This document shows positions 5,975-39,796 of a DNA stretch of 52,268 bases, piece after piece (within the stretch, counting starts at the first letter, position 1; each line of letters starts with the position of its first letter). The stretch is from Flavisolibacter ginsengisoli DSM 18119 (GTDB lineage: Bacteria > Bacteroidota > Bacteroidia > Chitinophagales > Chitinophagaceae): positions 1 through 52,268 of the forward strand of contig NZ_FQUU01000024.1 in assembly GCF_900129295.1 (NCBI RefSeq). Direction: 5' to 3'. Below the pieces are notes generated by a model, which saw only the letters and a program-made list of their open reading frames with translations, made no database searches and was not told the DNA's origin. A program made the translations under genes and the position numbers.

Positions 5975-5996
5975 AATTTGATTTATTGGATGGATT

Positions 5997-11068: not shown

Positions 11069-11080
11069 TAGCTAATTCTC

Positions 11081-11130: not shown

Positions 11131-11137
11131 TCAGCAA

Positions 11138-12265: not shown

Positions 12266-12273
12266 AAGCCCTT

Positions 12274-12364: not shown

Positions 12365-12390
12365 ATGAGCGGAAGTTCTCCTATTCTCTT

Positions 12391-12816: not shown

Positions 12817-13554
12817 ATGAAACACAGAACGCTTCTCCTGTCTCTGGCCGGCTTGCTTGCTATGTTCTTAACAGCCTGCGGTGGCAAGGAAGAAAAAACC
12901 ACCACCGACTCAACCAGCATGACCACGGACACTACCATGCACACTACCACAACCACCACCCCTGCCACACCGGCAACTACCACAGCCACTGTTATGGTGG
13001 TCAAACACAAGGTGGCCAATTTCAACAAATGGATGGCTTCCTATGATGAGCATGACTCCATGCGGGTAGCCTCAGGGCTGCACAATTTTGTTATCGGGCG
13101 GGGCATTCCTGATTCCAATATGGTGATGGTAGCTGTGAAAGTGGATGATACTGCAAAAGCCAAGGCATTTGCCAAAGACCCTAGCCTGAAAAAAGCTATG
13201 CAAAAGGGTGGCGTCATCGGCGCGCCAAATATTATGATCTTCAACACAACCTTTCTTGATAACGGCCAGGCATCCAACCTGCGCGTGATGACATATGAAA
13301 CAGTTAAAGACTGGGATGCCTGGAAAACAGCTTTTGAAAGCGGCAAACAATTGCGCACCGATAATGGATTAATGGACAGGGCCATTGGCTATGATATCAA
13401 TGACAACCATAAGATTTCCGTTGTGCTTTCCTTTACTGACAGCGCTAAAGGCATGAGCTTCCTGAAATCAGATACCATGAAAAAAAGAATGGCTGCCGCA
13501 GGTGTTATGGGCCAACCCAACCGCTATTATTACCACGTAGCTAAAACGTATTGA
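12817..13554 (+). CDS. Lipoprotein with two ferredoxin-like (dimeric alpha/beta barrel) repeats
   Basis: The 245-aa protein starts with a lipoprotein signal (SLAGLLAMFLTACGG, Cys21). A Thr/Ser/Ala-rich linker of about 40 residues follows, which probably tethers the domain away from the membrane. Two homologous halves come next: HKVANFNKWMASYDEHDSMR...VIGAPNIMIF and ETVKDWDAWKTAFESGKQLR...VMGQPNRYYY. Their pattern resembles the dimeric alpha/beta barrel or antibiotic-biosynthesis-monooxygenase-like fold. The ligand is unknown. The internal duplication is visible directly. Confidence 0.65.
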   Translation: MKHRTLLLSLAGLLAMFLTACGGKEEKTTTDSTSMTTDTTMHTTTTTTPATPATTTATVMVVKHKVANFNKWMASYDEHDSMRVASGLHNFVIGRGIPDSNMVMVAVKVDDTAKAKAFAKDPSLKKAMQKGGVIGAPNIMIFNTTFLDNGQASNLRVMTYETVKDWDAWKTAFESGKQLRTDNGLMDRAIGYDINDNHKISVVLSFTDSAKGMSFLKSDTMKKRMAAAGVMGQPNRYYYHVAKTY

Positions 13555-13752
13555 GGATTTAAGATGAAATAATATTTAATATTGAATATTCAGGGAGTTT
13601 ATAACAATACCTATCTTCTCTGACTCATTCAGCTGACTGGTTTATAACCAGTAGATATTAAATATTACATCTTCTATATTAACTATCGGAAACTCTTCAA
13701 TCTTTAATTCTCTCAATAAGAAATATTACATACTAAATCTTAAATAGCTTCT

Positions 13753-14256
13753 ATGCTCGTTAAATCTCTCCTCGGTGAGTTTGAATTCGAAGCCGAAAAC
13801 ACCCGCAAGCTGTTACAAGCCATACCAGATAGCGCCCTGAATTTTAAACCTTCAGACAAATCATGGACTACAGGACAACTGGCCTCACACATTGCCGAAG
13901 TATATAACTGGTACCAGCCAACGCTGCACCAGGATGTGTTTGATATGTCTACCTACAAGTATGACAAGGGAGATATCAGTAAAGCCTCCAATATTGTGGC
14001 CAAATTTGAAGAAAATGTGAAGGCTGCCAGGAAAGCACTGGAATCAGCTACAGATGAAAGCATGTCTAAGAATTGGAAAATGACCATGGGAAGCGATGAA
14101 CCCGTTTTCCCGGAAATGCCAAGGGCACAGGTGGTGCGTGGCTTCCTCTTCAACCATCTCTACCACCACCGTGGCGAAATGGTCATCTACCTGCGTAGCA
14201 CCGGCAATAAACCTCCAGGCATCTATGGACCAACATTCGAAGAATCGCAACGGTAA
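13753..14256 (+). CDS. DinB-family (YfiT-like) metal-binding protein
   Basis: The 167-aa cytoplasmic protein fits the DinB/YfiT four-helix fold. The first helix has LLGEFEFEAENTRKLLQAIPDSALNFKPSDKSWT, followed by a metal-ligand histidine in LASHIAEVYNWY. The C-terminal FLFNHLYHHRGEMVIYLR supplies the other two expected histidines. Such proteins bind Ni or Zn and include thiol-dependent transferases; the substrate is unknown. The gene ends 16 bp before a good terminator. Confidence 0.85.
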   Translation: MLVKSLLGEFEFEAENTRKLLQAIPDSALNFKPSDKSWTTGQLASHIAEVYNWYQPTLHQDVFDMSTYKYDKGDISKASNIVAKFEENVKAARKALESATDESMSKNWKMTMGSDEPVFPEMPRAQVVRGFLFNHLYHHRGEMVIYLRSTGNKPPGIYGPTFEESQR

Positions 14257-14271
14257 TAAATGATTCAACAC

Positions 14272-14305
14272 AAATGCAGCTGTCAAACCAGCTGCATTTT
14301 ATTTT
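14272..14305 (+). terminator. Terminator after DinB-family gene
   Basis: Perfect 11-bp stem AAATGCAGCTG (14272-14282) / CAGCTGCATTT (14289-14299) with a 6-nt loop, then a T-rich tail. Confidence 0.8.
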
Positions 14306-14486
14306 CTTCCGTAATGGCCAACTTTTGATTCCACCTGTAGATATGATTGACCGCTTATAATACAGTAGCTGCAAAGCAGGTTCCTATGCTTATATTTATG
14401 CTACTTTAACTACTACCCTATCCCATCACTATTATTGAATCACATTGAACCGGCCTGGCCTGTTTGAAAGTAATAATGCCATTAAC

Positions 14487-14876
14487 ATGAAACGTGTATC
14501 CATACAATTATGCCTGTTCTTATCTATGGCCATCAGCGCATGCAGCCATCACAGGCATGAAACATCATTCACAGTCAAAGAGTCTCACCACTCCTATTAC
14601 CTGGAGACGAACTTTAATGAAGACCTTACGCATGATGTGGAACGTTATCTCAATGATAAAATAGGACAAAGCGATCCATCCATATTGATCGATGGATCAG
14701 GCGACCGACGGATCACATTATCCGATCACAGTTCCTTTCACCTGGTAACGGATCCGGGTTATGTGGAACTGAAGCTGGACAAAGATCAAAATTCAAAGGC
14801 CTCCTATCAACGCATCCGTTCCATCTGCCAGGGTCTCAAAGCCGTTGTCATCCAACCCACACCCATTGACCAATAA
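14487..14876 (+). CDS. Small lipoprotein or secreted protein, unknown
   Basis: I start at ATG 14487 (MKRVSIQLCLFLSMAISACSH), which gives a lipoprotein signal with Cys19 and a 129-aa product; the upstream extension to 14445 has no signal. The mature part contains a short charged domain (HHSYYLETNFNEDLTHDVERYLNDKIG). I do not recognise the family. Confidence 0.6.
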   Translation: MKRVSIQLCLFLSMAISACSHHRHETSFTVKESHHSYYLETNFNEDLTHDVERYLNDKIGQSDPSILIDGSGDRRITLSDHSSFHLVTDPGYVELKLDKDQNSKASYQRIRSICQGLKAVVIQPTPIDQ

Positions 14877-15033
14877 TTTTCCTTGTTGAAATATAAACAA
14901 CAGTAAACTGAATGCTACGTATTCCGCATGCTTGTTATCAAAATACAACTCACATTGTCCACTCAGATATTTAAATCCTCAATTGCCATAAAAGCTGCTT
15001 GCTATCGAAGAACATCTTACCCTTAGCAAACCC

Positions 15034-15066
15034 AATATTAAATCTTACATATTAAATCTTACATCT
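15034..15066. repeat. AT-rich extragenic word (TTAAATCTTACATATTAAAT type)
   Basis: Tandem variants of ATTAAATCTTACAT. Related copies occur at 13653-13674, 13721-13744, 16122-16156, 16207-16240, 20641-20654, 20691-20722 and 42657-42690, all in spacers. Confidence 0.6.
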
Positions 15067-15068
15067 CC

Positions 15069-15965
15069 CTAAGGTTTCCCGCTTCCTCCCGCTGCGCCAT
15101 ATACCTGCCCGGTGGCATATCCCGCATCATTAGCCGCCAATTGTACATAGATGGAAGCCAGTTCTGCTGGTTGCCCCGGTCTTCCCAAAGGGGTTTTCCC
15201 GCCAAACTCTTTCAGCTTTTCCTGTGTAGCCCCACCACTCACCTGCAGGGGCGTCCAGATAGGACCAGGAGCTACGCCATTTACCCTGATACCTTTGCCG
15301 GCAAGTTGTTTAGCCAGCGAACGCACATAATTGGTAGTAGCCGCTTTTGTTTGTGCATAGTCATACAGATCTTCAGAAGGATCTTCTGCCTGCTCTGAGG
15401 TAGTTCCAATGATCGCTGAACCGGGTGGCAGGTGCGGCAGCGCAGCCTTAATGATCCAGAAGGGTGCATAAATATTGGTCTTCATCGTACGGTCAAACTG
15501 CTCTGTAGTAATATCAAGGATGGAAGGTTGTGTTTGTTGCAAGGCTGCATTGCATACCAGTATGTCCAGTCCACCCAAACCTTTTACCGCTTCATCTACC
15601 AGGCGCTGGCAAAATGATTCATCTGTTATATCACCCGGAATAGCAATTGCCTTACGTCCCTCTGCATTAATCATTGCTATTACTTCCCTGGCATCGGCTT
15701 CTTCAGCAGGAAGATAATTGATGGCCACATCTGCTCCTTCCCTGGCATAAGCAATAGCTGCAGCCCTTCCCATACCTGAATCGCCACCTGTAATTAAAGC
15801 CTTTCTTCCCAGCAATCTTCCTGAGCCCTTATAGCTCGTTTCACCATGATCGGGTTTTGGATCCATTTTGCCTGCCAGCCCAGGCCATGGTTGAGACTGG
15901 CCCTTAAACGGTGGCTTTGGATATTTATAGCGTGGGTCTTGTAAACCTTGTTGATTTGCTTCCAT
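15069..15965 (-). CDS. SDR-family NAD(P)-dependent oxidoreductase (YghA-like)
   Basis: The 298-aa cytoplasmic enzyme is a classical short-chain dehydrogenase. The Rossmann motif is TGGDSGMGRAAA (about 55-66), the structural motif is NAAL, the catalytic pair is in YDYAQTKAA (Tyr and Lys), and a PGPIWTPL block follows. The N-terminal extension with DPRYKYPKPPFKGQSQPWPG and KMDPKPDHGETSYKGSGRL is typical of the YghA/GsiB-like general-stress SDR subgroup. The substrate is probably a small carbonyl or alcohol. It stands alone. Confidence 0.9.
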   Translation of the reverse strand: MEANQQGLQDPRYKYPKPPFKGQSQPWPGLAGKMDPKPDHGETSYKGSGRLLGRKALITGGDSGMGRAAAIAYAREGADVAINYLPAEEADAREVIAMINAEGRKAIAIPGDITDESFCQRLVDEAVKGLGGLDILVCNAALQQTQPSILDITTEQFDRTMKTNIYAPFWIIKAALPHLPPGSAIIGTTSEQAEDPSEDLYDYAQTKAATTNYVRSLAKQLAGKGIRVNGVAPGPIWTPLQVSGGATQEKLKEFGGKTPLGRPGQPAELASIYVQLAANDAGYATGQVYGAAGGSGKP

Positions 15966-26271: not shown

Positions 26272-26805
26272 TTAAAATAGTTTCAACTGTCTTGCATCAT
26301 AGAAAAACCGGCGTTTGGGATTTCGCCTATATGGAATCAGGTCCCTTTCAAACACTTCTGTTTTATATCCAAAATGAGAAAGAGGGGTTAAATATAATTT
26401 ATCAGGGCTGGCCGGATGTCCGCCGATGCCAATGGCAATGAACATAGGAATATGATTTCTTTTTTCGTAAGCCATATAATTTTTGATCCTATGGCTATCA
26501 GCCCATTGAAAATGTCCTGTACCAAAACTTTGCTTCCATTTACATTCGATGGCAAATTTGAAAGGCCTATCTTTTGTATAGAAGAGAAATTTTAAATCCG
26601 GGTAGAGACATTTGGCAGCTGCCAAGCCATAAAGTATCGCATTTTCACTATTATAATGTAATAATTCAAACCGCTTACTTTTTAAGTTAAAAAGGCTTGC
26701 TACAAATTTTTCAAACGCTTCACCTTTTTCAAAAGCAGATAAAGAAATAAGAGGTTGCAAAGATGAAATATCATCTTTTCTTCTTAAAGCAGAATTATGA
26801 TTCAT
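26272..26805 (-). CDS. PD-(D/E)XK-like nuclease fold protein at end of defence operon
   Basis: The 177-aa protein shows the features of a restriction-endonuclease-like fold: a helix with GEAFEKFVASLF (Glu29, Glu32), then YPDLKF with Asp70, then FAIECKWKQ, an E-x-K pair at Glu87/Lys89. This spacing fits a PD-(D/E)XK core. The C-terminal part KNYMAYEKRNHIPMFIAIG is also seen in Mrr- and Holliday-like members. It is AT-rich and follows the defence genes on the same strand, 78 bp after the previous stop. A restriction or DNA-repair role is inferred from fold and context; no named family is certain. Confidence 0.6.
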   Translation of the reverse strand: MNHNSALRRKDDISSLQPLISLSAFEKGEAFEKFVASLFNLKSKRFELLHYNSENAILYGLAAAKCLYPDLKFLFYTKDRPFKFAIECKWKQSFGTGHFQWADSHRIKNYMAYEKRNHIPMFIAIGIGGHPASPDKLYLTPLSHFGYKTEVFERDLIPYRRNPKRRFFYDARQLKLF

Positions 26806-26883
26806 AAGTACGGGTATAGATAAAAATATCTTGCGTTAAAATACTGCTTGAATCAATGAATTGCAAGTTTATAAGGTGGTGTA

Positions 26884-27549
26884 TTACTTAACGAACTGCA
26901 AAAGATCATTTCTTAAATTATTGATATCTGAAATAGTTAGCTTATACCTAATATGCACATGTGCTCTTTGAGGATTATTTATTCTTAATCTTCTAGTTGA
27001 TTGTGTATATTTTTTAAAGAGTATGTTTTCCAGTTCTTTGACCCGGGAATTATCAGAATCCCATCTTTCCAGCAATGATTCCTTGGGAATACAAGTTGCT
27101 ACTTTTAAAGGTGATGATATATTAAATGAAGTAAAGGGCTCCTTTGTTTCAAAAAAAACATAAGGAGATAGAGACCTTTTCTCCCAATCTGTATGAAGCT
27201 TCCCGAACGGTTCAAATTGTTGACCATTCCTAATCAATAAATTATAAAAGCTCCTGTATTTTTTATAGGTATCAGATAACCAAATGTTTTCCCTTTCTCT
27301 TAATGTCTTCTGAACAGTACCAAAACCAATAAAATAATAGTTCCATTCGCGTGAGATTTCCTGTCGGCCACAAAAGAAGATTACAAGGTCACCTTGTTTT
27401 AATTGGCTTCTTACCTCCGGACGGCAAACTCCCCAGGTAGCAAAATTTGCATTACTAAATTCCTTCGTTGCCATAAAGAAAGCTGGATCATCACCCCAAT
27501 CATATATATTTCCAGGCTTAAAGTATTCCTTTACAAATTCATGGATCAA
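26884..27549 (-). CDS. PUA/EVE- or Nmad-like protein, possible modified-base reader
   Basis: The 221-aa product has an N-terminal block NANFATWGVCRPEVRSQLKQGDLVIFFCG. This resembles the CxPxIRxxxxxGDxxxx signature of nucleotide-modification-associated (Nmad2-like) and related PUA-superfamily domains. The rest, with YYFIGFGTVQKTL and SPYVFFETKEPFTSF, fits a beta-barrel fold. Such domains occur next to restriction-modification systems and may sense modified bases. The family assignment is tentative. It lies 126 bp downstream of hsdM on the same strand and is AT-rich like the inserted defence genes. Confidence 0.55.
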   Translation of the reverse strand: MIHEFVKEYFKPGNIYDWGDDPAFFMATKEFSNANFATWGVCRPEVRSQLKQGDLVIFFCGRQEISREWNYYFIGFGTVQKTLRERENIWLSDTYKKYRSFYNLLIRNGQQFEPFGKLHTDWEKRSLSPYVFFETKEPFTSFNISSPLKVATCIPKESLLERWDSDNSRVKELENILFKKYTQSTRRLRINNPQRAHVHIRYKLTISDINNLRNDLLQFVK

Positions 27550-27675
27550 TGGTTCATATTAGAAAGCTCCAGGACCTGCTTTTTATAGCTAGGATTGACA
27601 GTATGACGGTATACACAAATGAAAACATTCATTTTACTACAATACATTTTGTTTCCACTATGGGTATTACTAATC

Positions 27676-29154
27676 TCACTTCTTCAACTGTGCAATGATC
27701 TCTCTAAAACTCCCCAGCGCACTTTCCAGGTTCTCTGCTATCTCTTCCGCCAATACATCAGGGTCAGGAAGGTTATCCAAATCGGCAAGACTCTTATCCT
27801 TTAGCCAGGTGATATCCAATGAAGTTTTGTCCCTGGCAATGATCTCTTCGTAAGAGAACCTGCGCCAGCGGCCTTCAGGATTATCTGTGGGGTGATAGGT
27901 TTCCTTTCTCTTATGCCTGTTAGCTGCATGGTAGCAGGTAATGAAATCCTGCAGGTCGGCGAGCTTTAATGGATTCTTTTTAAGTGTATGGTGTATGTTG
28001 GTGCGGTAGTCATAAAACCAAACCTCCTTTGTCCAGGGATCCTTGCCCGAGGGTTTGTTGTCGAAGAAGACCACGTTGGCCTTAACGCCATTGGCATAAA
28101 AGATACCAGTAGGCAAACGAAGAATGGTATGCACCTCTGTTGTTTCCAATAACTTTTTGCGCACCATCTCTCCTGCACCGCCTTCAAAGAGTACATTATC
28201 AGGTATTACCACAGCGGCCATGCCCGTTGGCTTCAGCATGGAGCGGATGTGCTGCACAAAGTTCAGTTGCTTGTTGCTGGTGGTGGCCCAGAAATCCTGG
28301 CGGTTATAGGTAAGGTCTTCCTTCTCCTGCTCCCCTTCTTCGTTGGTAAAGGTCTGGCTGCTTTTCTTGCCAAAGGGCGGATTGGCCAGCACATAATCAT
28401 AGCGCTCCGGTGAAGAAGCTATTAATGCATCGGCAGGAGAAATTGAGTTATCACTATCTATATCGCCAATGTTGTGCAGGAAAAGATTCATCAGTGCCAG
28501 CCGCCTGGTACCTGCTACGATCTCGTTGCCGTAAAATGTGTTGAACTTGAGGAACTTCTTTTGCTCCTTATCCAGGTTATGATTGTTTACGATAAAATCA
28601 TAGGCGGCTAAAAAGAAGCCACCGGTACCACAGGCCGGGTCGGCAATGGTCTTCATTGGTTCCGGACGCACACATTCCACCATAGCCCTGATAAGAGCGC
28701 GGGGTGTAAAATACTGACCGGCGCCGCTCTTGGTATCTTCCGCATTCTTCTCCAGCAGGCCTTCATAGATATCGCCTTTCACATCTGCATCCATCAGCAC
28801 CCAGTTCTCCGCATGTATCATCTGCACCAGCTTATACAGCTTGGCAGGATCCGATATCTTGTTCTGGCTCTTGGTAAAGATCTGCCCTAGTATACCTTTC
28901 TCCCTGCCCAATTCCCTGAGGGTAGCTGTATAATGCACCTCCAGTTCATCGCCTTTCAGATCCACCAGGCTTTGCCAGTTGTATTGAGAAGGAATAGGCA
29001 TCTTCCGGTTATAAGGAGGTCTCGTATATTCATCTGCCATTTTCAGAAACAGCAGGTAGGTAAGCTGCTCCAGGTAATCGCCATAGCCTACACCATCATC
29101 ACGAAGCGTGTTGCAGAAAGACCAGACTTTGGATATGATTTGGTTGGTAGACAT
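27676..29154 (-). CDS. hsdM: Type I restriction-modification system, N6-adenine methyltransferase subunit M
   Basis: The 492-aa protein is full-length for HsdM. The N-terminal helical HsdM domain (VWSFCNTLRDDGVGYGDYLEQLTYLLFLKMADE) precedes the SAM-binding motif DPACGTGGF (172-180) and the catalytic NPPF motif (258-261) of amino-methyltransferases. It methylates adenine at sites recognised by HsdS and, with HsdS and HsdR, forms the restriction complex. Its composition is GC-richer than the neighbouring inserted genes and like that of hsdR. It is unusual in being the last of the hsd genes, separated from hsdS by the RT gene. Confidence 0.96.
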   Translation of the reverse strand: MSTNQIISKVWSFCNTLRDDGVGYGDYLEQLTYLLFLKMADEYTRPPYNRKMPIPSQYNWQSLVDLKGDELEVHYTATLRELGREKGILGQIFTKSQNKISDPAKLYKLVQMIHAENWVLMDADVKGDIYEGLLEKNAEDTKSGAGQYFTPRALIRAMVECVRPEPMKTIADPACGTGGFFLAAYDFIVNNHNLDKEQKKFLKFNTFYGNEIVAGTRRLALMNLFLHNIGDIDSDNSISPADALIASSPERYDYVLANPPFGKKSSQTFTNEEGEQEKEDLTYNRQDFWATTSNKQLNFVQHIRSMLKPTGMAAVVIPDNVLFEGGAGEMVRKKLLETTEVHTILRLPTGIFYANGVKANVVFFDNKPSGKDPWTKEVWFYDYRTNIHHTLKKNPLKLADLQDFITCYHAANRHKRKETYHPTDNPEGRWRRFSYEEIIARDKTSLDITWLKDKSLADLDNLPDPDVLAEEIAENLESALGSFREIIAQLKK

Positions 29155-29330
29155 GGCATATATTTTTTACTTGAACTAATCAACATGAAACTTCCCTCTG
29201 CTTCGCACTCTTCTATGTTAAGAGAATTATGTGGCCTAATTGCACCATGCCTATAGATAAACATTTTGAAAAGCTTGCCGACATCGTCAAAAACCTTCAT
29301 CAGAATATGCATTTTATAAGATACTTTCAT
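29088..29330 (-). CDS. Possible small ORF bridging RT gene and hsdM (80 aa)
   Basis: This frame opens 17 bp before the RT stop and runs into the first 67 bp of hsdM in another frame, so translation could be continuous across the 159-bp gap. The peptide contains DDVGKLFKMFIYRHGAIRPHN and is not recognised. It could equally be a chance frame, or the gap could hold a leader or small RNA. Confidence 0.2.
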   Translation of the reverse strand: MKVSYKMHILMKVFDDVGKLFKMFIYRHGAIRPHNSLNIEECEAEGSFMLISSSKKYMPCLPTKSYPKSGLSATRFVMMV

Positions 29331-32300
29331 TTCTCATTCTTCGTAATACATCTTGGAGTAAAAAATCTGGTGGCAAAGGTTTAAATTCTCCGACCGAATG
29401 TGTTAAAGAAAACTTTTGTCTTTGAAACTCCCTTAGCCTGTTTATATTAATCTTTGCGACAAGTATCGTATCATTTGTACCACCTTTCAATCTCAAAATA
29501 TCTTTTCTCGCAGTTTCTACAGGCTGGGTTAATCTTGTATCGCCATACTGACTTGTATTCACTTGAGCAACATATGTATGTAAATCTCGTGATCCAGTTT
29601 CAACGATATTCGAAAAATATGGAGTATCTCTATTCCATTCAACTCCAATCAATAAGTCAATTTTTCCCTTCATCAAACTTCTATGCAATGAGTTTGCAAG
29701 CTCAAAACAATAATAACTTGAAAAATAGATATTACGCCAGTTAAATATATCATATCTATAAGGTGAAGGCTTCGGTATCGCAAAATGATTCCCTTCAATT
29801 AATGCTTCTTCAGCATGGGCATAATGATTTTTCAATCTAAAGACAACGACTGCGTCTCTTATTCCTCCAACTTCAACCGGAAGAATCGTAACAATAAAAT
29901 TAAAAACAGTGAAATCAACTGTTACATGCTCCAACCCAGTAATGGTAAGCACACTATTTTTTTCAGAATATCTAACTAAACTTGAAAGAAGATTAATAGG
30001 AATAAAAAATTCTGGAAATATTAGAATATTTGATCTAGCAACTCTCGCACTTTTTAGTATTTCTGATAATTGCTGATACCTTTCTAAACCTAAATTCGGT
30101 ATCCCTCTTAAGCTCTTAAGAATATTGTCCTCTTTTACTTCTGTGTTCGCAAATGATATACTTGGTTCTGCCAATTTACTTTTACCTGACGACACCCTTA
30201 TCTCTTGAACTTTTAATGGTTTAATTTTATCATAATGAACAGATTGTGATGAGCGTTTGTAAAATTGCTCTCTAAAATCCTCCTCATCAAATTTATAACT
30301 AGGTATATGATTTTGATTTATCTGCTTATACAATTCAAAAGCAGCATCAAGGTAAAATTCATCAGTATGTTCATCTTCTTTGAATGTATCCTTACTAACC
30401 ACATCAGTAATTCCCAAAACATTAGTTATTATTCTACCATCTTCGTAGATACCACTTCTTTTCTCAAACTTTGATAACTTCTCTAATGCAATTGCTAAAC
30501 AGCATTCCCAAAATTTTACTGCTCTTGGAGAATTATTCAACAACTCTTGATCCAAGTAATAATCTTGAAAAGAAAAATTTAAAGAAGTAAGATCTATCAT
30601 CCCCTTTTTCGACTTTCTGGTGTAATTAAGTAATGGATGAATTACATAATGATGACGAATCATATTCGTTTGCCTAAATCTATAGACCCAAAATGAATTC
30701 GATTTGGTTGGTTCAAAACTTAAACTAAAGAAAAATGGAAGAGTAGATTCTATTTTCCTTAATTGAAATTCAAAATGGATAAATGCTTCTTGTGTATCCT
30801 TTATAAATTTTGGATTTAGAGATAGTGCAAGTTCATGAGCACAATCCAAGTAATTAGTCATTGTTTCCTTAATTAGGGAATCCTGGACCTTATTTTTCTT
30901 ATTAACATTTACAAGTTTTTGAATTTCTATGAGACAGTGAAGATAAAAATCGACATATGTTTTAGCTTGTCTATTAACAAGAAAATAAGTGAAGATCTTT
31001 TCCCAAAGCCTATAAAAATTTATACAGTTGGAACCACGAAAAAATTTTAACACTTGCTTGCCTTCCTCATCAGATATCTGTCTTTCATGTCTTAGAGCAC
31101 TGAATATTTTATTAGCTAAGTAAACAGTAAGCCCATATCTGTTTTCCTTATAATCTTTCAAAGTTCTAATTTTTCCATCGGATCCATCATATTGCAAATA
31201 ATAAGCACTTTCTTCGAAGCTTTCTTCGTTATGATCTTCCTCTGGAAAATCTCTAAACTCGCTTGTTTTTTCATCCAATTCTTTTTTAAGCTTGTCGATG
31301 ACCAAATCTGATTCTTCTGAATCAAAAAAGTACAATAATGATTTAGCGCTTTGACAATAAAGTGAATCATATCCACACAATTTAAAAGACTTTTGCACGT
31401 GCTTATCTTTATTAGTTTCCTTTTGAATAAAGGGTGGAGTATCGATTAATTTAATAACGACGGAAAAATTCTGCAGTACATACTCTTCTAACTGGGTCAA
31501 ACTTTCCTCGCTAAACGAAACCTTTTCATTTCTTTTTTTTGCTCTGTTTATTTTATTCTTGTACTTTTTAAAAGAAAATTTAAAATCTTCATCTTTTTCT
31601 GTCTTATGGTAGTCAGGTTTAGGGTCTGCAATTACAATTAATATGTCGTCAACATACCTTCCATAGTATGCAGGTTTTATTAATTGAAAAATTCGGGTAT
31701 CAAAATCCTTAAGGAAGTCATTTGCCAAAACGTACGAAGACAATAAACCTATTGGAAGAATAATTTCAGAAAGGTTATTTGAATTGTCCTTTTTCAAGCT
31801 TTTGAAAAATTCGTATGGCACTTCATACTTCTTTCCTACTTTTTCTGAATAAATAGTATGGATTTTTAAGAAAATCTCCTCAAGATTTGATAAATGTTGT
31901 AAAACTCCAGCTTTATTGTTATTATAGAGTTTTGTAGTGGGAATCCTAACAGAATGAAAATAATCTTGAATGTCAAGATTTAAAAAAAGTGCATTTCTGT
32001 TGTCTTTTAAAAGGCTTTGTGCGGCCTTGACTGAGTCATCTCTCCACTTCTGATACTGTTTGAAATATGGCTTGAAAAGGCTTGATCCTTGAACAACCTT
32101 ATCCTTACTTTTATTCAGTAAAAGTCTATTGCCTAAGCAACTATCATCTAAAACTGCATCATAGTGTACGCCATACTCCATTATCCACAAGACAGATAAA
32201 ATATGTAGCTCCAAAGGAGCATCAATAAATGCATTAACCCGGTCAACTTTATAGGAGCTTTCAATTCTTTTATTTGTTATAAAATTTTCATCAATATTTC

Positions 32301-32628
32301 TTTGCTCTATAGATTTTGGATAAAACAATACTGTTATTTGCGCCAAAAAATAATCAAAAAAACTCTGGTCCTCATGGTATTCATTTAATGCATCTTTAAT
32401 TGATTCTAGTTTCTTATCAACGCTTTCAGATATTTTTAATTTCTTAAAACTTATTTTGTTTAAATATGGCCTAGGGCCGCCTTTAATCAAAGATAAAATG
32501 TCATCCTTAATTGTATTTGTTTCAAATTCAACTAGCTTCCTTCTTAAAAGAAGGTCTGTACTATCAAAATAGATGTAAGACTTTAGTTTTATATAAGCTT
32601 CTCTTATTTGATGGAGCTCGAACGACAT
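29314..32628 (-). CDS. Defence-associated reverse transcriptase, RT-nitrilase fusion (DRT type 1 / UG1-like)
   Basis: I start at ATG 32628 (MSFELHQIREAYIKLKSYIY), giving 1104 aa; the frame from 32667 would overlap hsdS by 20 bp. RT motif A is in LFLNLDIQDYFHSV (Asp219). The next core motif is LPIGLLSS (291-298). The catalytic YVDD is at 325-328. All acidic residues needed for polymerase activity are present. The C-terminal 240 residues are a nitrilase-like domain with a full apparent Glu-Lys-Cys triad: FPEFF (Glu873), RLKNHY (Lys933) and YYCFE (Cys974). An RT fused to a nitrilase is the hallmark of UG1 / DRT type 1 antiphage proteins. There is no group II intron maturase domain and no retron architecture. 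It is strongly AT-rich and sits between hsdS and hsdM. Confidence 0.88.
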   Translation of the reverse strand: MSFELHQIREAYIKLKSYIYFDSTDLLLRRKLVEFETNTIKDDILSLIKGGPRPYLNKISFKKLKISESVDKKLESIKDALNEYHEDQSFFDYFLAQITVLFYPKSIEQRNIDENFITNKRIESSYKVDRVNAFIDAPLELHILSVLWIMEYGVHYDAVLDDSCLGNRLLLNKSKDKVVQGSSLFKPYFKQYQKWRDDSVKAAQSLLKDNRNALFLNLDIQDYFHSVRIPTTKLYNNNKAGVLQHLSNLEEIFLKIHTIYSEKVGKKYEVPYEFFKSLKKDNSNNLSEIILPIGLLSSYVLANDFLKDFDTRIFQLIKPAYYGRYVDDILIVIADPKPDYHKTEKDEDFKFSFKKYKNKINRAKKRNEKVSFSEESLTQLEEYVLQNFSVVIKLIDTPPFIQKETNKDKHVQKSFKLCGYDSLYCQSAKSLLYFFDSEESDLVIDKLKKELDEKTSEFRDFPEEDHNEESFEESAYYLQYDGSDGKIRTLKDYKENRYGLTVYLANKIFSALRHERQISDEEGKQVLKFFRGSNCINFYRLWEKIFTYFLVNRQAKTYVDFYLHCLIEIQKLVNVNKKNKVQDSLIKETMTNYLDCAHELALSLNPKFIKDTQEAFIHFEFQLRKIESTLPFFFSLSFEPTKSNSFWVYRFRQTNMIRHHYVIHPLLNYTRKSKKGMIDLTSLNFSFQDYYLDQELLNNSPRAVKFWECCLAIALEKLSKFEKRSGIYEDGRIITNVLGITDVVSKDTFKEDEHTDEFYLDAAFELYKQINQNHIPSYKFDEEDFREQFYKRSSQSVHYDKIKPLKVQEIRVSSGKSKLAEPSISFANTEVKEDNILKSLRGIPNLGLERYQQLSEILKSARVARSNILIFPEFFIPINLLSSLVRYSEKNSVLTITGLEHVTVDFTVFNFIVTILPVEVGGIRDAVVVFRLKNHYAHAEEALIEGNHFAIPKPSPYRYDIFNWRNIYFSSYYCFELANSLHRSLMKGKIDLLIGVEWNRDTPYFSNIVETGSRDLHTYVAQVNTSQYGDTRLTQPVETARKDILRLKGGTNDTILVAKININRLREFQRQKFSLTHSVGEFKPLPPDFLLQDVLRRMRNESIL

Positions 32629-32647
32629 TATATGTGTAGTTTTGGTT

Positions 32648-33907
32648 TTAAAATAATTTACCCTCAAACGCCTTCTTCAAAATACTTTGCCTTAAAGCCT
32701 CTGCTTGTTTTAAGCTACTTGTTATTGTTTCTTCTATATTATCACAAACACTAAGACGGCTTTCTATTTCCTGAACGATTTGGTGTTGCTCTTCAATAGA
32801 GCATAAAGGAACTTTTACTTTTTCTAGTATATCTACATTAATGTTCTTTTGAGCCGTTGCTGGCGCCATCTCCTCCAACTTCGACTTGTAGAAAATGAAG
32901 AAATAGTTTGTGTATTTGGTTAGCAGAACTTCTTCCTTGGAAATCAAACCAACAACACTATCTGGAAAGCATGCATCAAAATTCAATATAGCTGTTTCGC
33001 CAATATTCGCTGCTATGGTAATACATAAAGTTCCTTTAGGCCATAACTTACTTTGTTGTAATCCTTGCTCACTATATGTTTGTGTAAAGGTTGAAATATA
33101 GCAGCCATTTGCATTCCTTATATCCCCCGTTTGGATGAATGGATATTTACCACCGAATAATGAAGGTTCATTTCTTGGTCTATGCTTGGACTTACCTCTT
33201 TTAATTATGCAAGCATCTTTTAATTCGATCCTTTTCCACCCATCCGGCAACTCGCCATCCTTCACACCCTCATTTGTCAGCCTCCCTTCAAAAGCCCATT
33301 TTAATACAGCCTGCCGGTAAACTTTTAATTGCCGTTGTGCAGTTTTTAATTCTTCAACGCCTTTATCTAATTCGCTAAAGAGTTCTTCTATTTTTGAAAC
33401 AATTTGTTGCTGAATATTTAGTGGAGCCATTGGAACAACTAATAGACCTAGTTTAGTTCCATTAACATTTGGTTGACCTATACCAACTTGTCCGTCTGTG
33501 ATTTGCTGCCAATAATATAGTGATTGAAAATAATTGTATATATATTTATCAATAATACCTTTCTTAAAGCGAACACGAATTAGATAAGAAGCAAAAACAG
33601 ATTCAGGAATATTTCCCTTGACTAAATAGCTTTTTCCAACAGTTGCACCAGTTCTTGCAAATAATAAATCTCCAACTTTTAGTAAATACTTCTCCTTATT
33701 ATCTGCATCAATTGGGCAGTAGGGTACAGCATTCCACAGAACGTCGCCATTTTGAATATCTGTTATTCGCAGAAATTTTGGACCAACTTTTTCTTTCGAT
33801 GAAGATTCAGTATAACCGTACTGAATGCTTTCAGCAATATTTTTAACTTCTATCCAATGCCAATCCTTTGGTAGCCCATTTCTATTTTTGCTATTTAACT
33901 CTATCAT
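32648..33907 (-). CDS. hsdS: Type I restriction-modification system, specificity subunit S
   Basis: The 419-aa protein has two target-recognition domains. The first begins GLPKDWHWIEVKNI and the second GELPDGWKRIELKDA. Each is followed by a long helix (conserved region), for example QQIVSKIEELFSELDKGVEELKTAQ and a C-terminal EALRQSILKKAFEGKLF. HsdS selects the bipartite DNA site for both methylation and cleavage. It starts 6 bp after the kwaB stop and is followed by the RT gene, so it is the only hsd gene wedged between the two inserted systems. Confidence 0.95.
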   Translation of the reverse strand: MIELNSKNRNGLPKDWHWIEVKNIAESIQYGYTESSSKEKVGPKFLRITDIQNGDVLWNAVPYCPIDADNKEKYLLKVGDLLFARTGATVGKSYLVKGNIPESVFASYLIRVRFKKGIIDKYIYNYFQSLYYWQQITDGQVGIGQPNVNGTKLGLLVVPMAPLNIQQQIVSKIEELFSELDKGVEELKTAQRQLKVYRQAVLKWAFEGRLTNEGVKDGELPDGWKRIELKDACIIKRGKSKHRPRNEPSLFGGKYPFIQTGDIRNANGCYISTFTQTYSEQGLQQSKLWPKGTLCITIAANIGETAILNFDACFPDSVVGLISKEEVLLTKYTNYFFIFYKSKLEEMAPATAQKNINVDILEKVKVPLCSIEEQHQIVQEIESRLSVCDNIEETITSSLKQAEALRQSILKKAFEGKLF

Positions 33908-33913
33908 TGTTTA

Positions 33914-34942
33914 CTATTTCTTCAATCTACCTGCTGGAGACTCAAATACTTTACCTCCGAATATTCCTTCTTTGTAATATTCGCATAATACTTTAATTAT
34001 GTCTTCCGCGGCGTGTTCGTCTAATGCTATTACCCTGCCCTTGCCATCAAAATTGAATTTGATCGCTAATTTGTTGCCTGCCCTTTTAAATTCTTTCTTT
34101 ATATCCTTACAAGTCTTTAAAAATTCAAGATTCCCGATAGCCTTTGCCTTGATTAATTTATTTCTAAACGCTGGTTTTTGAGCAATAACTCCAGACAAAT
34201 GTTTAAGGCCGTCAACAAACTTGATGTCCTCAATTTCTGCAACAATTTCTTGCGCCACAACTTCGAATTCTTCGGTGATACTTGTGATGTCCTCAAAAGC
34301 CTTTTTTTGAAATATATAAATGCCTTCATCAACATAAATCATGTCTATACTAGGTTCAATATTTAAAGAAAAGCCTTTAAACGGCTTAAGGCTTTTTGTC
34401 TTTGTATCAAATAATGCTGTAAAACCATTTTTGACCGCTTCATTTACACTTGTGGATGTTTCGATTTCAACTGCCATTTTGCTTGGTTGTAATTTCTTTA
34501 TACAATACAGCCATTTCTTTTGTTTAGAATTGTAAAAGCCATAGCATAATGCCCACGCCTTTTCAAGATCGGCTAATTCTTCAAATGTTTTTAATGGGCT
34601 AATTTGTTTGTTTAATCTATTTTTTAGAAATTCCTGGAAACCTGAAATTTTTCCTAGATCTGTGTAAGAATAAATTTTATCAATTGTATCGTCAATAACT
34701 TCATATTCCACAATTTGTACATCTTCTTTTATTTTCTTCTCTATAACCTTTTTCAGCATTGAAGAAATAACAGGCATTAATTCAGGGCTTAATTGTATTT
34801 GCAACGGAGCATATTCAAACTTATCCGAGGGACGAGCTTTCGTTCCATGGTCTAGTTTTGTTTTTCTCTCTATAACATAGAGATGCACAGTTTCAACAGA
34901 GGTGAATTCCTCGAGGCGATTTAGCAGCTTTTTAGAAGTCAT
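33914..34942 (-). CDS. kwaB: KwaB-like protein (DUF4868), Kiwa defence system
   Basis: The 342-aa cytoplasmic protein matches the DUF4868 pattern of KwaB, with FKGFSLNIEPSIDMIYVDEGIYIFQKKAFEDI and the C-terminal NFDGKGRVIALDEHAAEDIIKVLCEYY. It follows a four-TM protein after a 9-bp gap, the KwaA-KwaB order of Kiwa. In that system the membrane protein KwaA is reported to sense phage infection at the membrane and KwaB to act on DNA-level processes. It is AT-rich and sits between hsdR/kwaA and hsdS. Confidence 0.75.
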   Translation of the reverse strand: MTSKKLLNRLEEFTSVETVHLYVIERKTKLDHGTKARPSDKFEYAPLQIQLSPELMPVISSMLKKVIEKKIKEDVQIVEYEVIDDTIDKIYSYTDLGKISGFQEFLKNRLNKQISPLKTFEELADLEKAWALCYGFYNSKQKKWLYCIKKLQPSKMAVEIETSTSVNEAVKNGFTALFDTKTKSLKPFKGFSLNIEPSIDMIYVDEGIYIFQKKAFEDITSITEEFEVVAQEIVAEIEDIKFVDGLKHLSGVIAQKPAFRNKLIKAKAIGNLEFLKTCKDIKKEFKRAGNKLAIKFNFDGKGRVIALDEHAAEDIIKVLCEYYKEGIFGGKVFESPAGRLKK

Positions 34943-34951
34943 AAGATAATT

Positions 34952-35560
34952 TTAAAAGGCAAAAAATAATCGATGGCTGAGTTTAAATATTTTTAGTTCT
35001 TCCCCTTCATCTATCCATCGATGTTGAGAAATAATTAAAGCGGTTTTGTTTTCGCTGGAATCATTATAACTGTATTCGATTTCATATAGTCCATATTTAG
35101 TGTTTAAAATTGGATTGATCAATATCAAACTCGATGTTGAATACAGTTTATAATAAAGAATAAACAGTATAAAAAATGTAGTATACTCAAATAGGCCTAT
35201 CTCCCCTTGCATAAGAAGCGGAATAACATATGTCGCTAAATAAGAAAGGGCTTCTTCGTTTTTTGGCTTGATTGATGAAACTATAACAGGGAATGCATTT
35301 GCTTTCTTGCTTTTTATATTTCGAAATGTCATCTTGACCCCTATTAAGGCGTAGATGCTTAACAAAAGTAAAATCAGTACAAAACCAAATTTTTCAAAAA
35401 ATGTAAAGGTGGCTGCTTCAGTAAACCCTCCATAGTTCAAATAGTTTTTGTTGGCTACAATCACTTTTATGATAAGTAAAAAGAACAATGGTAAGTATGA
35501 CATACAAAACAAGGCAAACAGGGAGGGACTTTTCAATAAATGTGGGTTACTCGAAGCCAT
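34952..35560 (-). CDS. kwaA: KwaA-like membrane protein, Kiwa defence system
   Basis: The 202-aa protein has about four membrane segments: SYLPLFFLLIIKVIV (about 21-35), GFVLILLLLSIYALIG (59-74), ALSYLATYVIPLLM (104-117) and TFFILFILYYKLY (128-140). A short cytoplasmic tail contains INPILNTKYGLYEIEYSY, which resembles the conserved NPILN..Y..YE segment of KwaA. It begins 15 bp after the hsdR stop and is followed after 9 bp by the kwaB-like gene. The pairing and order strongly favour KwaA over a generic membrane protein. Confidence 0.72.
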   Translation of the reverse strand: MASSNPHLLKSPSLFALFCMSYLPLFFLLIIKVIVANKNYLNYGGFTEAATFTFFEKFGFVLILLLLSIYALIGVKMTFRNIKSKKANAFPVIVSSIKPKNEEALSYLATYVIPLLMQGEIGLFEYTTFFILFILYYKLYSTSSLILINPILNTKYGLYEIEYSYNDSSENKTALIISQHRWIDEGEELKIFKLSHRLFFAF

Positions 35561-35575
35561 ACAGTTTGATATTAT

Positions 35576-38371
35576 TTACGCAACTAGTTCTACATTCAAT
35601 TCCTTAATAATCTCCTCTGTCTCTTCCCCAAACAACTGCCACATTTTTCCCAATCCACCCTGCTTATTGAAAGGATCCAGTTCAAAATCTTCCTTGTCAA
35701 GGTGAAAAGAGCCGGCAATGTAATCCTTTATCATGCGCAGCCATTGCACCTGTGCTTCGGAGTACTTCAGCGTACCTGCCTGCTTTTTAAAGATCCAGTC
35801 CTGGAAGTTGCGGTCCACGGTTTTATCAAAAGCCGTAAGGCTGCTATCCATACCACTCACCTTGCGCACCAGGGCCACCAGAGCCATGAGTTCATTCTTC
35901 GGCTGGCCGTTCACTTTTTCCAGTTGCTCATAGGCCTTCCACACCTGCAGGGGCGCCAGCATAGGCTTGTTCATCTTGATGGTTTCCACCAGGTCCTTCA
36001 GCATCTTGTAGGAAAGCTCGCGCCTGCGGTAGGGCTGCGCATAAAATACCTGCAGTGCTGTGATCTCAGTTTTATGCTCCTCTATCCAATGGGTGAAATC
36101 ATGTATGATGCTCTCGGCAGCAACTTTATTGTCCTTCACCCAGCCAATATTTTGTATCTCGTCCAGGTTGATATGATCTATGTACTGGTCATATTTTTTA
36201 CGAACATCAATCACATAGTTGCGCAACTCCCAGCTATTGAAAATAGAAGTGGCCTGTTCCACCAGTTCTGATTGCTTCTTGGTATAAATGGCTTCCTGCT
36301 CTTCCACCGTAGCATAGGGATGCTCCTTTTCAATATTACATTTCACCTGCTCTATCGTATCTGCATCATAGGCATTCAGCAGGTCCTTCACCACGCTGTT
36401 GATGCTTTTGCCCCCAGCTTTCTCCGCAAAGGCAGCTTTCTCCTTTTCGTTGATCTGCTTGTCCAGCCGTATCAGCCTGTTGGCTAAAGTGCTCAGCATC
36501 TCTTCTTCCTTATTGCCCATGGCAATGCCTTCCAGCACTTCTTTCAGGCTCATGCCCGGCTTCTTTTCCATGGGCCGGCTATCGGTCTTCTGGCTCTTCT
36601 CCACCCCAATGGCGTCAATGATCACAAAATGGTCCTTGGTGTATTTGGCGGCGGGAGTGCCCGTGCTTCTCAATTCATCCAGGCTGCAGGTACGGGTGCC
36701 ACGTCCCTTCATCTGCTCGTAATAGCTGCGGCTTTTCACGTCCCGCATAAAGAGCAATACTTCCAGCGGGCGTATGTCCGTACCCGTGGCTATCATATCT
36801 ACCGTCACGGCAATCCGCGGGTAATAGCTCATTCTGAATTGCTGTAATACTGTCTTGGGGTCTTCTTTTTCTTCTCCTTCCGCTGTGCGGTAGGTGATCT
36901 TTTTACAGAACTTGTTCTCCTCGGCAAACTCCCTGCGCACTATATTAATGATATCATCGGCATGGCTGTCGCTCTTGGCGAAGATTAGGGTCTTGGGTAC
37001 TTCAAAATTCCCGTCCTTGTCCACCCTGTCGGGAAACATTACTGGCAACTGGTCCCTCACGGCCTGTATGATCAACTGGATCTGGTTAGGATTGACCACC
37101 TTATCATCCAGTTGCTTGGCACTGTACTCTACATCCTCATCCAACTGGTTCCAGAATTTCTTCCTTGTCAGCTTTTCCCGCCTGTCTATATATTCACCCA
37201 GCGAAAGCTTCGCGCCTTCTTTGGTGATCTTTGTCTGTATCTCGAAAACATTATAAGGTACAAGCACCCCATCTTCCACCGCCTTCTTGTAGCCATAATC
37301 AGAAACAATGTTCTTTTCAAAATAGCCAAACGTGCGGTTATCCGGAGTAGCAGTTAAACCAATTTGAAAAGCATCAAAATAATCCAGCACCTGTTTCCAG
37401 AGGTTGTATATACTCTGGTGGCATTCGTCTATCACAATGAAGTCAAAGAATTCCATCGGCACCTTCTGGTTATACACCACGGGCATGGGTTCTTTGGGCT
37501 TCCATTTTTTGGAAGCGGGATCTTCTTCCTCATCACGTTCGTCCAGTTCTGTTCCTTTCAATATGGAATACAGTCGCTGAATGGTGCTGATATATACCTG
37601 GCTGTCTGGTGGAATAAAGGAGCTACTCAAGCGGGTAACGCCATAGAGCTCAGGAAAGAGGCGGTTATCATCCTGTGGTTCATAGCGTTTGAATTCCTGC
37701 TCCGCCTGTTCACCCAGGTTGCGCGTATTCACCAGGAACAATACCCGCTTTGCCCTGGCAAATTTCAATAAGCGGTAAATGGATGTAATGGCCGTAAAGG
37801 TCTTACCCGAACCCGTAGCCATCTGCACCAGGGCCTTGGGCCTGTTCTCCCGGAAAGACTTTTCCAGGTTAGTTATGGCTGTTACCTGGCAGTCCCGCAG
37901 CCCATCAGGTTGCAGGACAGGGATATTGTGAACTCTCTTTCTTAGGGTTTCAGCTTCCCGCAGCAAATACTCAAATGTTTGCGGCCGGTGAAAAGTAAAT
38001 ACCGGTCTTGAGCGGGGCTTGGGATCGCGGTAATCCGTAAAGCGTGTCACATCGCCCGTGCTCTCATATACAAAGGGCAGCGGGTCGTTGTTGATGTATT
38101 TCAGTTTGGCCTGTGCATATTCCACCGACTGTTCCTCGTGCATGGTCAGCCGAACGCCTTCTTCTTCCCGCTTGGCTTCAATCAGTCCCACAGGCCTGCC
38201 ATCTACAAAGAGTACATAATCGGCTGGTCCCACATTGGTCTGGTATTCACAAACGGCCACGCCAGGGCCGGCGCGAAGGTTGATATGTTTTTTGTCCTGC
38301 ACAATCCAGCCACAGGCAGTCAACTGCTTGTCGATCTCATCCCGGGCAATCTGTTCAGGGTTTTGGTTCAT
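35576..38371 (-). CDS. hsdR: Type I restriction-modification system, restriction subunit R (EcoEI-type)
   Basis: The 931-aa protein is a full HsdR. The N-terminal nuclease domain has PADYVLF with Asp51 and GLIEAK with Glu65/Lys67, a PD-(D/E)XK core. The translocase follows with Walker A MATGSGKTF (Lys191), DECH (316-319) and LTATP. The C-terminal EcoEI-like domain completes the protein. It cleaves unmodified DNA at a distance after ATP-driven translocation. It is the first gene of the operon, with host-like composition. On the minus strand a TATACTTG (38401-38408), one mismatch from TAnnTTTG, lies about 30 bp upstream as a weak promoter candidate. Confidence 0.96.
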   Translation of the reverse strand: MNQNPEQIARDEIDKQLTACGWIVQDKKHINLRAGPGVAVCEYQTNVGPADYVLFVDGRPVGLIEAKREEEGVRLTMHEEQSVEYAQAKLKYINNDPLPFVYESTGDVTRFTDYRDPKPRSRPVFTFHRPQTFEYLLREAETLRKRVHNIPVLQPDGLRDCQVTAITNLEKSFRENRPKALVQMATGSGKTFTAITSIYRLLKFARAKRVLFLVNTRNLGEQAEQEFKRYEPQDDNRLFPELYGVTRLSSSFIPPDSQVYISTIQRLYSILKGTELDERDEEEDPASKKWKPKEPMPVVYNQKVPMEFFDFIVIDECHQSIYNLWKQVLDYFDAFQIGLTATPDNRTFGYFEKNIVSDYGYKKAVEDGVLVPYNVFEIQTKITKEGAKLSLGEYIDRREKLTRKKFWNQLDEDVEYSAKQLDDKVVNPNQIQLIIQAVRDQLPVMFPDRVDKDGNFEVPKTLIFAKSDSHADDIINIVRREFAEENKFCKKITYRTAEGEEKEDPKTVLQQFRMSYYPRIAVTVDMIATGTDIRPLEVLLFMRDVKSRSYYEQMKGRGTRTCSLDELRSTGTPAAKYTKDHFVIIDAIGVEKSQKTDSRPMEKKPGMSLKEVLEGIAMGNKEEEMLSTLANRLIRLDKQINEKEKAAFAEKAGGKSINSVVKDLLNAYDADTIEQVKCNIEKEHPYATVEEQEAIYTKKQSELVEQATSIFNSWELRNYVIDVRKKYDQYIDHINLDEIQNIGWVKDNKVAAESIIHDFTHWIEEHKTEITALQVFYAQPYRRRELSYKMLKDLVETIKMNKPMLAPLQVWKAYEQLEKVNGQPKNELMALVALVRKVSGMDSSLTAFDKTVDRNFQDWIFKKQAGTLKYSEAQVQWLRMIKDYIAGSFHLDKEDFELDPFNKQGGLGKMWQLFGEETEEIIKELNVELVA

Positions 38372-39301: not shown

Positions 39302-39796
39302 TTAATTATGTAATCCTGATCCTGATCCCAGGTGCATCCAGAACAACCTTGCACAGGCAACGGCATCGGATATGGCATCATGATGATTCAACTCTATGCG
39401 GTACTGCTGGCAAAGAAGGGATAGCTTTTTGCCATAGAGGCGGTAGGTACAATGCGTTTGGTATTGCGGAATGGGAATACGGTAGTGTGAAAGCGTTTGC
39501 TACAGGCAGCTATTATCAAAGGCCATATTATGCGCTACCAGGTGCTGGCCGGCAATATAATGTTCCAGTGCCCACCACACTTTATCAAAGGGCAGTGCCG
39601 AGGCAGTCATGCGAGGCGTGATGCCATGCACGTCAATATTGTATTTTGAATATTCATTGCCCGGCGGACGCACCAGTAAATTTACCTGGTCCACCACCTC
39701 GCCCCTGATCACACGCACCAGGCCTACCTGGCAAATGCTGTTGCGCCGGCCGGTGGCCGTTTCAAAATCTATGGCAGTAAAAGCATTCTTAGGCAT
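39302..39796 (-). pseudogene. 3'-5' exonuclease (DnaQ/RNase T-like), broken by one in-frame TAG
   Basis: The first 98 codons encode a DEDD-type exonuclease start: AIDFETATG with the first Asp and Glu, and HNMAFD. The frame then meets TAG at 39500-39502. Past that stop the same frame continues for about 65 codons with family-like sequence: HYRIPIPQYQTHCTYRLYGKKLSLLCQQY and LNHHDAISDAVACARLF, with the last acidic motif, ending at TAA 39302. Only one base change or suppressed stop separates it from an intact 164-aa protein, so the break looks recent or could be a sequencing error. The stop removes the last catalytic Asp. Confidence 0.75.

Follow-up and report, generated by a model that had tools for sequence, protein, structure and literature searches.

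What does it mean when a type I restriction-modification (RM) operon holds further defence systems between its own genes: one machine of coupled parts, or a frame whose contents can be exchanged? The question is raised by a stretch of 52,268 nucleotides from Flavisolibacter ginsengisoli DSM 18119 (contig NZ_FQUU01000024.1, called the window hereafter), in which the genes on the minus strand follow the order hsdR-kwaA-kwaB-hsdS-RT/nitrilase-hsdM, then acc1 and acc2; kwaA and kwaB form a Kiwa pair, and RT/nitrilase is a reverse transcriptase (RT) joined to a nitrilase. Comparison with related loci makes it quite probable that the window represents a subfamily of type I operons of the order R-S-M, in which exchangeable, often antiviral cargo occupies the internal junctions, enters by recombination at hsd gene ends and acts as independent layers. 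Because these joints are filled quite differently in relatives, we regard the operon as a cargo platform and not as one fused defence machine.

The intergenic gaps from hsdR to hsdM measure 15, 9, 6, 19 and 159 bp, followed by 126 and 78 bp in front of acc1 and acc2. The first five values reproduce those of an initial annotation of the locus, and its coordinates, strand and gene order were likewise confirmed, and its statement that the systems are interleaved and not merely neighbours is borne out by five same-strand junctions of 6-159 bp. This packing, together with the same hsd frame in 36 out of 36 complete loci whose HsdM is at least 57% identical to that of the window, goes beyond chance: foreign genes lie between the hsd genes, on their strand and with short gaps, as expected where defence genes are embedded in a type I RM operon. 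The locus is an AT-rich mosaic, with a GC content of 0.31-0.35 in the genes between hsdR and hsdM and 0.439 in the flanks (Table 1). PADLOC supports all six main genes and Pfam five, the RT scoring just below the Pfam cut-off (26.4 of 29.6 bits). HsdR, HsdM and HsdS occur together with domains above curated cut-offs, and GSGKT and DECH of HsdR as well as NPPF of HsdM are what we take to be their catalytic motifs.

Table 1. Features of the locus, listed in the direction of the operon.
Feature	Position	Strand	Size and start	Location	Support	GC
hsdR	35576-38371	minus	931 aa		ResIII, EcoEI_R_C and HSDR_N above Pfam cut-off; GSGKT, DECH	0.488
kwaA	34952-35560	minus	202 aa	hsdR-hsdS slot	PADLOC KwaA, E 4.2e-54	0.320
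kwaB	33914-34942	minus	342 aa	hsdR-hsdS slot	PADLOC KwaB, E 7.4e-61; PF16162 above cut-off	0.339
hsdS	32648-33907	minus	419 aa		Methylase_S, 2 stretches	0.352
RT-nitrilase	29314-32628	minus	1104 aa (ATG)	hsdS-hsdM slot	PADLOC RT_UG5-nitrilase, 791.9 bits, E 2.6e-238	0.312
Gap before hsdM	29155..29313	minus	159 bp		hsdM matches to L120, L121, L122, L081 and L125 stop at 29133-29167	
hsdM	27676-29154	minus	492 aa		N6_Mtase and HsdM_N above Pfam cut-off; NPPF	0.480
acc1	26884-27549	minus	221 aa (TTG)	downstream of hsdM	Nmad3, E 0.034, below cut-off	AT-rich
acc2	26272-26805	minus	177 aa		weakly PD-(D/E)XK-like; PDDEXK_11, E 0.024, below cut-off	AT-rich

The family labels of the initial annotation stand for the three Hsd proteins and for KwaA and KwaB. 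Its assignment of the RT to DRT1/UG1 does not: the PADLOC model for UG5-nitrilase reaches 791.9 bits against only 63.6 bits for Drt1a, and the candidate UG1/DRT1 identity was rejected. The UG5-nitrilase match is the best one and is full-length (residues 7-1107 of 1117; a TTG at 32667 is also possible as start codon). The YVDD motif is kept in the RT, and the Glu, Lys and Cys of the nitrilase are invariant in six aligned rows (the window and five relatives); we presume that both sets of residues are catalytic. A search of solved structures with the RT returned 0 matches. The two Kiwa genes are adjacent homologues of kwaA and kwaB, with no Pfam match for KwaA. A profile of eight KwaB sequences matched the solved KwaB chain (E 2.5e-37) and a profile of eight KwaA sequences the solved KwaA (E 2.8e-36); both profiles comprise the window and seven loci with members 13-24% identical to those of the window, and they test the group and not the window alone. 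The NCBIfam scores of the window proteins lie under the equivalog cut-offs (28.7 of 200 bits for KwaB, 59.8 of 100 bits for KwaA), which are naming thresholds and not biological features; we therefore file the pair, as judged from its sequence, as a divergent Kiwa. AlphaFold models of KwaB and KwaA had a mean predicted local distance difference test score (pLDDT) of 48.2 and 64.5, respectively, too poor for a fold search.

Related loci were collected with HsdM as the query, which does not select for cargo. Matches were obtained in 35 of 395 genomes of the class (E ≤1e-60) and in 30 of 396 genomes of the order (E ≤1e-150), the two samples overlapping. The class search listed 38 HsdM places, namely the window, 32 that were fetched and five that were left (G135 at 42% identity and the fragments G215, G161:C149, G268:C39 and G268:C3); the 30 places of the order search were the window and G295, already included, 26 that were fetched, and G557 and G495, left as contig starts. 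In total, 58 regions besides the window were mapped, and the analysed set comprised 54 loci including the window; L106-L110 (HsdM 41-44% identical, all R-M-S) were excluded from it. All three hsd genes were present on the stretch in 37 of the 54 loci, and the 17 lacking one were excluded from slot counts.

Thirty-six of the 37 complete loci, the window included, have the order R-S-M, all with an HsdM at least 57% identical; the sole R-M-S locus among them is L103 (49%). At HsdM identities of 41-49% all six loci are R-M-S (L103 and L106-L110); L106-L109 are without inserts and L110 has two open reading frames (ORFs) between hsdR and hsdM. Within the R-S-M subfamily, gaps of more than 250 bp separate hsdR from hsdS in 22 of 36 loci and hsdS from hsdM in 33; both gaps are this wide in 19 loci, and no locus lacks both. 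The separation of hsdS from hsdM emphasized in the initial annotation is thus ordinary here. GC content below the mean of hsdR and hsdM was found for hsdS in 36/36 loci, for the R-S stretches in 22/22 and for the S-M stretches in 33/33. An empty site was also sought by the flanking genes in 19 genomes, where the best relative has the two flanks on different contigs. As a separate observation, L103 carries next to hsdS another hsdS piece in inverted orientation (13195-13695, minus strand), an arrangement like that of phase-variable type I systems.

The slots turn over their contents. Same-strand cargo amounts to 118 ORFs in 58 families, and among slot ORFs of at least 150 aa in the 36 loci, 90 of 101 lie on the operon strand. 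The families include AlbA_2, GmrSD_N, KAP, DUF4062, RhuM, PDDEXK_3 and AAA_21 ATPases (one of them preceding an HNH protein); a Pfam scan of 30 cargo proteins left 6 without a match at E 0.001. Seven of ten cargo proteins submitted to PADLOC matched more than a fragment of a model (Drt2, GajA and several candidate families) and three matched none. A Drt2 RT (PADLOC E 2.3e-137) occupies the hsdS-hsdM slot of L125, from the same family of bacteria (10411-11976, minus strand), between hsdM and hsdS fragments, and a GajA-like gene the hsdR-hsdS slot of L141 (9429-11180, minus strand). The labels Fic, TCPMT (three-Cys-motif methyltransferase-like) and Y1 (REP-type transposase) and that of a PIN-like ORF in L095 were given by eye. 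Clustering used same-strand ORFs only, and its overlap rule missed RhuM in L098 and L128, DUF4062 in L142 and an AAA gene in L143.

Exchange is also seen at the level of DNA. The backbones closest to the window, G467 (HsdM 90% identical) and G756 (86%, same genus), carry other cargo, and their DNA similarity to the window is confined to hsdR, hsdM and only two stretches of hsdS. The likeness of hsdS to near relatives is likewise limited to central and 3' stretches: blastn with the window gene returned matches only near 33233-33414 and 32646-32811 (L120, L121, L122, L125). For the pairs L129/L131, L083/L124, L130/L132 and L089/L090, similarity ends 0-4 bp past the hsdR stop codon and resumes at most 9 bp from the hsdM start. 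Mapping the R-S cargo of 33 loci on an HsdM tree requires 20 changes, against a shuffled mean of 19.4, so this cargo is spread as shuffled labels would be. Cargo labels were set by hand, and with 16 S-M and 14 R-S states the minimum is 15 and 13 changes, respectively, so that the counts are to be compared with shuffles; the tree is a quick one, with the two longest branches (L101, L103) unsure.

A possible route of exchange is suggested by short hsd pieces beside the cargo. Searching 126 hsd genes against the 54 loci with the main genes masked gave 23 raw matches and none in the reversed-sequence control. Eleven were dropped by hand, namely broken main genes, edges and a trimmed start (L088, L093, L099 twice, L104, L105, L136, L129), the inverted hsdS of L103 and two ambiguous repeats in L090. 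The 12 fragments kept are found in 9 of the 54 loci, in or beside the slots and all on the operon strand. Seven derive from the first 262 bp of hsdM (L081 twice, L094, L096, L121, L125 twice), three from the hsdS 3' end (L085, L125, L133), one from the hsdR 3' end (L141) and one from the hsdM 3' end (L120). None of the 12 is more than 270 bp away from a gene end (random-position p 1e-5, calculated for the kept 12 only), and 11 come from the slot-facing end; a protein search recovers 9 of the 12, its reversed control being empty. In L141 the hsdR 3' end recurs as a 198-bp copy of 97% identity about 2 kb beyond the GajA-like gene, and in L125 an hsdM piece directly abuts the hsdS 3' piece in front of Drt2. 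The second short hsdM match to the window seen in both L120 and L121 corresponds to these fragments. The L085 fragment was scored as hsdS 3' end, and in a self-comparison it also matches the end of the short hsdR piece of that locus. The fragments fit donor cargo that would have entered by homology within one hsd gene, leaving behind the broken end of the resident copy.

Copies of this operon on viral contigs offer a comparison. Ten such loci with this HsdM were found, seven with all three hsd genes; all seven (L157-L162, L165) are cargo-free R-S-M copies whose R-S and S-M junctions measure -4 to +4 bp, and in six copies hsdS and hsdM overlap by 4 bp. One of the three incomplete copies has overlapping hsdS and hsdM. 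Both junctions are empty in 7/7 complete viral versus 0/36 chromosomal loci (p 3e-8, with hosts that differ and loci that are not independent). Among plasmids, 45 records had an HsdM match and seven were viewed. Those of Gemmobacter, Pusillibacter and Rhodococcus show a helicase (taken as hsdR), hsdS and hsdM in this order, with genes in one or both slots; on that of Pantoea two genes separate hsdS from hsdM, and on that of Vibrio campbellii hsdS and hsdM are adjacent without cargo, neither plasmid having a listed hsdR. The Methylomonas plasmid carries hsdM without other hsd genes, and the Acinetobacter plasmid a 41.7% identical HsdM homologue in a compact R-M-S operon.

In the cargo-platform reading, HsdR, HsdS and HsdM would assemble as a normal type I enzyme even with their genes apart, and the cargo would be expressed from the hsd message. 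The defence would consist of separate layers, namely cleavage of unmodified DNA by the type I enzyme, KwaA and KwaB at the membrane binding entering phage DNA, and the RT-nitrilase arm, each presumably active in its own right. We infer co-transcription of the interleaved genes, which is plausible because of their tight spacing. New cargo would arrive by recombination with the conserved hsd gene ends as homology, and hsdR and hsdM would therefore persist while cargo and hsdS change. More tentatively, and with somewhat less than an even chance of being right, hsdR-hsdS-hsdM operons could serve as a homology-driven capture device for defence genes, in which one-sided recombination leaves scars. 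Donor cargo with its neighbouring hsd gene would recombine on one side, by homology, with the hsd gene of the resident copy, and the second junction would form illegitimately; the cargo would land in a slot and the scar would be the broken resident end (hsdM 5', hsdS 3', hsdR 3' or hsdM 3'). Repeated rounds would stack cassettes, as perhaps in L125 and L081, and sequence specificity could change along with the cargo. Viral-contig copies would mostly stay empty, and Kiwa plus UG5 RT would be one snapshot of the process.

Several observations weigh against the platform reading. An occupied slot was defined by a gap of more than 250 bp and not by a proven gene, and related loci are not independent of one another. 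Families tend to stay in one slot, so exchange is not wholly free: the commoner slot of recurrent families accounts for 55 of 60 entries against 47.6 expected (permutation p 5e-5, a value inflated by shared descent). On the HsdM tree, S-M cargo changes 23 times over 39 loci with a shuffled mean of 27.3 and a lowest value of 23 in 200 shuffles; having fewer changes than shuffled labels, it is partly inherited. In the two remaining incomplete viral copies (L156, L164), hsdM is preceded by cargo-like genes. The window itself has no hsd-end fragment, and the capture route proposed for it is therefore drawn from its relatives. Finally, the 159-bp gap before hsdM may contain a promoter of its own. 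Scans for sigma-70 promoters (45 found, 41.4 expected) and terminators (12 found, 12.0 expected) were uninformative either way; a Bacteroidota-type promoter pattern occurred 0 times on the minus strand and once on the plus strand of the window, and Rfam and tRNA scans of the window gave 0 matches.

Strict control of the cargo by the RM enzyme would explain the embedding differently and is, in our estimate, unlikely. As with PrrC, the cargo would be held inactive by the enzyme and released when a phage blocks it, embedding would provide matched co-expression, and the logic need possibly apply to some cargo only. PrrC itself is the precedent, described for a type IC locus in the excerpts of PMC12707154 and PMC3874165, and both the absence of insert-free copies among the 36 complete chromosomal loci and the loyalty of cargo families to their slots agree with such control. 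Against it, PMC12904381 names perturbation of the membrane and inhibition of RNA polymerase as the triggers of Kiwa, and UG5-nitrilase is also found at loci where no hsd gene is in view, so that neither seems to need an RM system to guard.

Very improbable is the coupling put forward in the initial annotation, in which the RT arm would be set off by restriction fragments or by Kiwa sensing at the membrane, and joint function would preserve the gene order. The tight same-strand packing speaks for such a machine, as do a second genome with UG5-nitrilase beside hsdS (L034, order hsdR-hsdM-hsdS-RT) and L114, in which kwaA lies directly 3' of hsdS in an hsdR-hsdM-hsdS operon. The nested set did not hold up as a unit, however: the combination of Kiwa and UG5 RT occurs in 0 of the 58 related HsdM regions mapped, no locus viewed besides the window has both, and the nearest backbones hold other cargo. 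We therefore rejected the set as a conserved unit; the order of the three systems is not conserved, which fulfils a large part of what the initial annotation itself named as refuting its idea, but the hsd frame itself is strongly conserved. Full-length UG5-nitrilase was found in 4 of 395 class genomes (read from match spans, one being split over two frames), with three further loci from a scan of genome contigs, and it adjoins hsd genes in only two of the seven loci viewed (the window and L034). The others are without hsd genes in the available stretch, with L004 and L038 ending at or near the RT and L037 being short. KwaB of the window type was present in 11 of 395 genomes; among the eight loci viewed (E ≤4.2e-6), Kiwa lies in or beside hsd genes in three, i.e. 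the window, L114 and L095 (kwaAB about 1.1 kb before hsdM, with no hsdS visible), and the remaining five have no hsd gene on the fetched stretch. A fused sensing chain has no support.

Two candidate associations were discarded. The neighbours of Kiwa in G126 (L117), judged by eye, are not hsd genes, and a 1086-aa helicase beside a split UG5 RT in L035, recovered as hsdR by an iterated profile, gave no PADLOC match for type I restriction and was not counted. In that locus (2738-15434, minus strand) the UG5 RT and the nitrilase reside on two ORFs between a helicase-like gene and genes that by eye are Wadjet-like, the latter without a PADLOC match. Plasmid relatives of the RT comprise 11 records; the two viewed (E. 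coli and Sinorhizobium, 27-30% identical over 53% and 44% of the query) have no hsd gene listed nearby.

Ordinary crowding of a defence island, in which unrelated insertions fell between hsd genes by accident and the junctions have no special role, is already disfavoured and the least probable of the explanations: defence genes do cluster in general (as PMC12255303 also states), the cargo includes ORFs that by eye are REP-type transposase-like and 11 of the 101 slot ORFs lie on the opposite strand, but in all 36 complete loci the hsd order is kept and one or both of the same two junctions hold an insert, the great majority of slot ORFs follow the operon strand and the kept fragments come from hsd ends only.

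The downstream end of the operon perhaps also holds exchangeable cargo, and acc1 and acc2 of the window may sit in such a third slot. The hsdM 3' fragment of L120, about 4 kb downstream of hsdM, suggests a third slot there. For acc1 no match was found in PADLOC or NCBIfam; a relative of acc2 follows hsdM in L099 (11031-11798) and itself weakly matches TerB only. Two further ORFs were noted on the minus strand of the window: one of 80 aa overlapping the hsdM start (29088-29330), which by eye resembles an insertion sequence (IS) transposase tail, and an exonuclease-like one upstream of hsdR (39500-39796; RNase_T, 98 aa), apparently shortened by a stop.

The locus cautions that a tight, interleaved operon need not be a functional unit, since the same frame holds different cargo in near relatives. 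It also yields a search rule, as the two junctions of the hsdR-hsdS-hsdM subfamily point to candidate defence genes, several without a family here, and the hsd-end fragments provide a testable route for defence-gene accumulation. If the platform reading is true, foreign DNA would find a preferred landing site in the very restriction system that keeps it out.

Embedded defence genes in type I operons are already known; the slot preference and the scars are the newer part. The initial annotation took the nested arrangement as a unit to be possibly undescribed; its kind is in print for TgvAB, DarTG2, PrrC and rloAB, as cited below. Within a literature coverage that largely leaves out subscription papers and preprints, and is weak evidence for that reason, no report was found of an hsd operon that contains Kiwa or a UG5 RT, or of hsd-end fragments at cargo borders. 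In Campylobacter jejuni M1, hsdR, rloA, rloB, hsdS and hsdM are consecutive locus tags according to an excerpt of PMC2928727, and RloF (DUF262) is placed between hsdR and hsdS in a passage of PMC11411939; these genes are likewise embedded in a type I locus, with cargo other than that of the window. PrrC of EcoprrI, in the portions available of PMC12707154 and PMC3874165, is activated when T4 inhibits the enzyme; it is an effector embedded like the window cargo, one that depends on the RM complex. PMC3710099 reports RhuM, Fic/Doc and HEPN genes alongside R-M components, in passages that are without two fixed slots, whereas RhuM and Fic-like genes (the latter by eye) fill the S-M slot here. A C-terminal nitrilase is borne by both UG1 and UG5 RTs, as an excerpt of PMC8934634 has it; the window protein likewise combines an RT with a C-terminal nitrilase, UG5 being a relative of UG1/DRT1. 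Kiwa appears in the accessible text of PMC12904381 as a membrane complex binding entering DNA; in the window both proteins are adjacent and their group profiles match the solved chains, the pair being divergent and lying inside an RM operon. DarTG2, between hsdS and hsdR in enteropathogenic E. coli, is embedded at an hsd junction like the window cargo, a site called a potential recombination hotspot in a passage of PMC12255303, and differs as a single module; it has a repressor gene, rptR, upstream. TgvAB, described in part of PMC11411939, is a complete second defence system between hsd genes, in a five-gene operon of VPI-2 in Vibrio cholerae; it is one embedded type IV system, whereas the window fills both slots, one with Kiwa and one with an RT.

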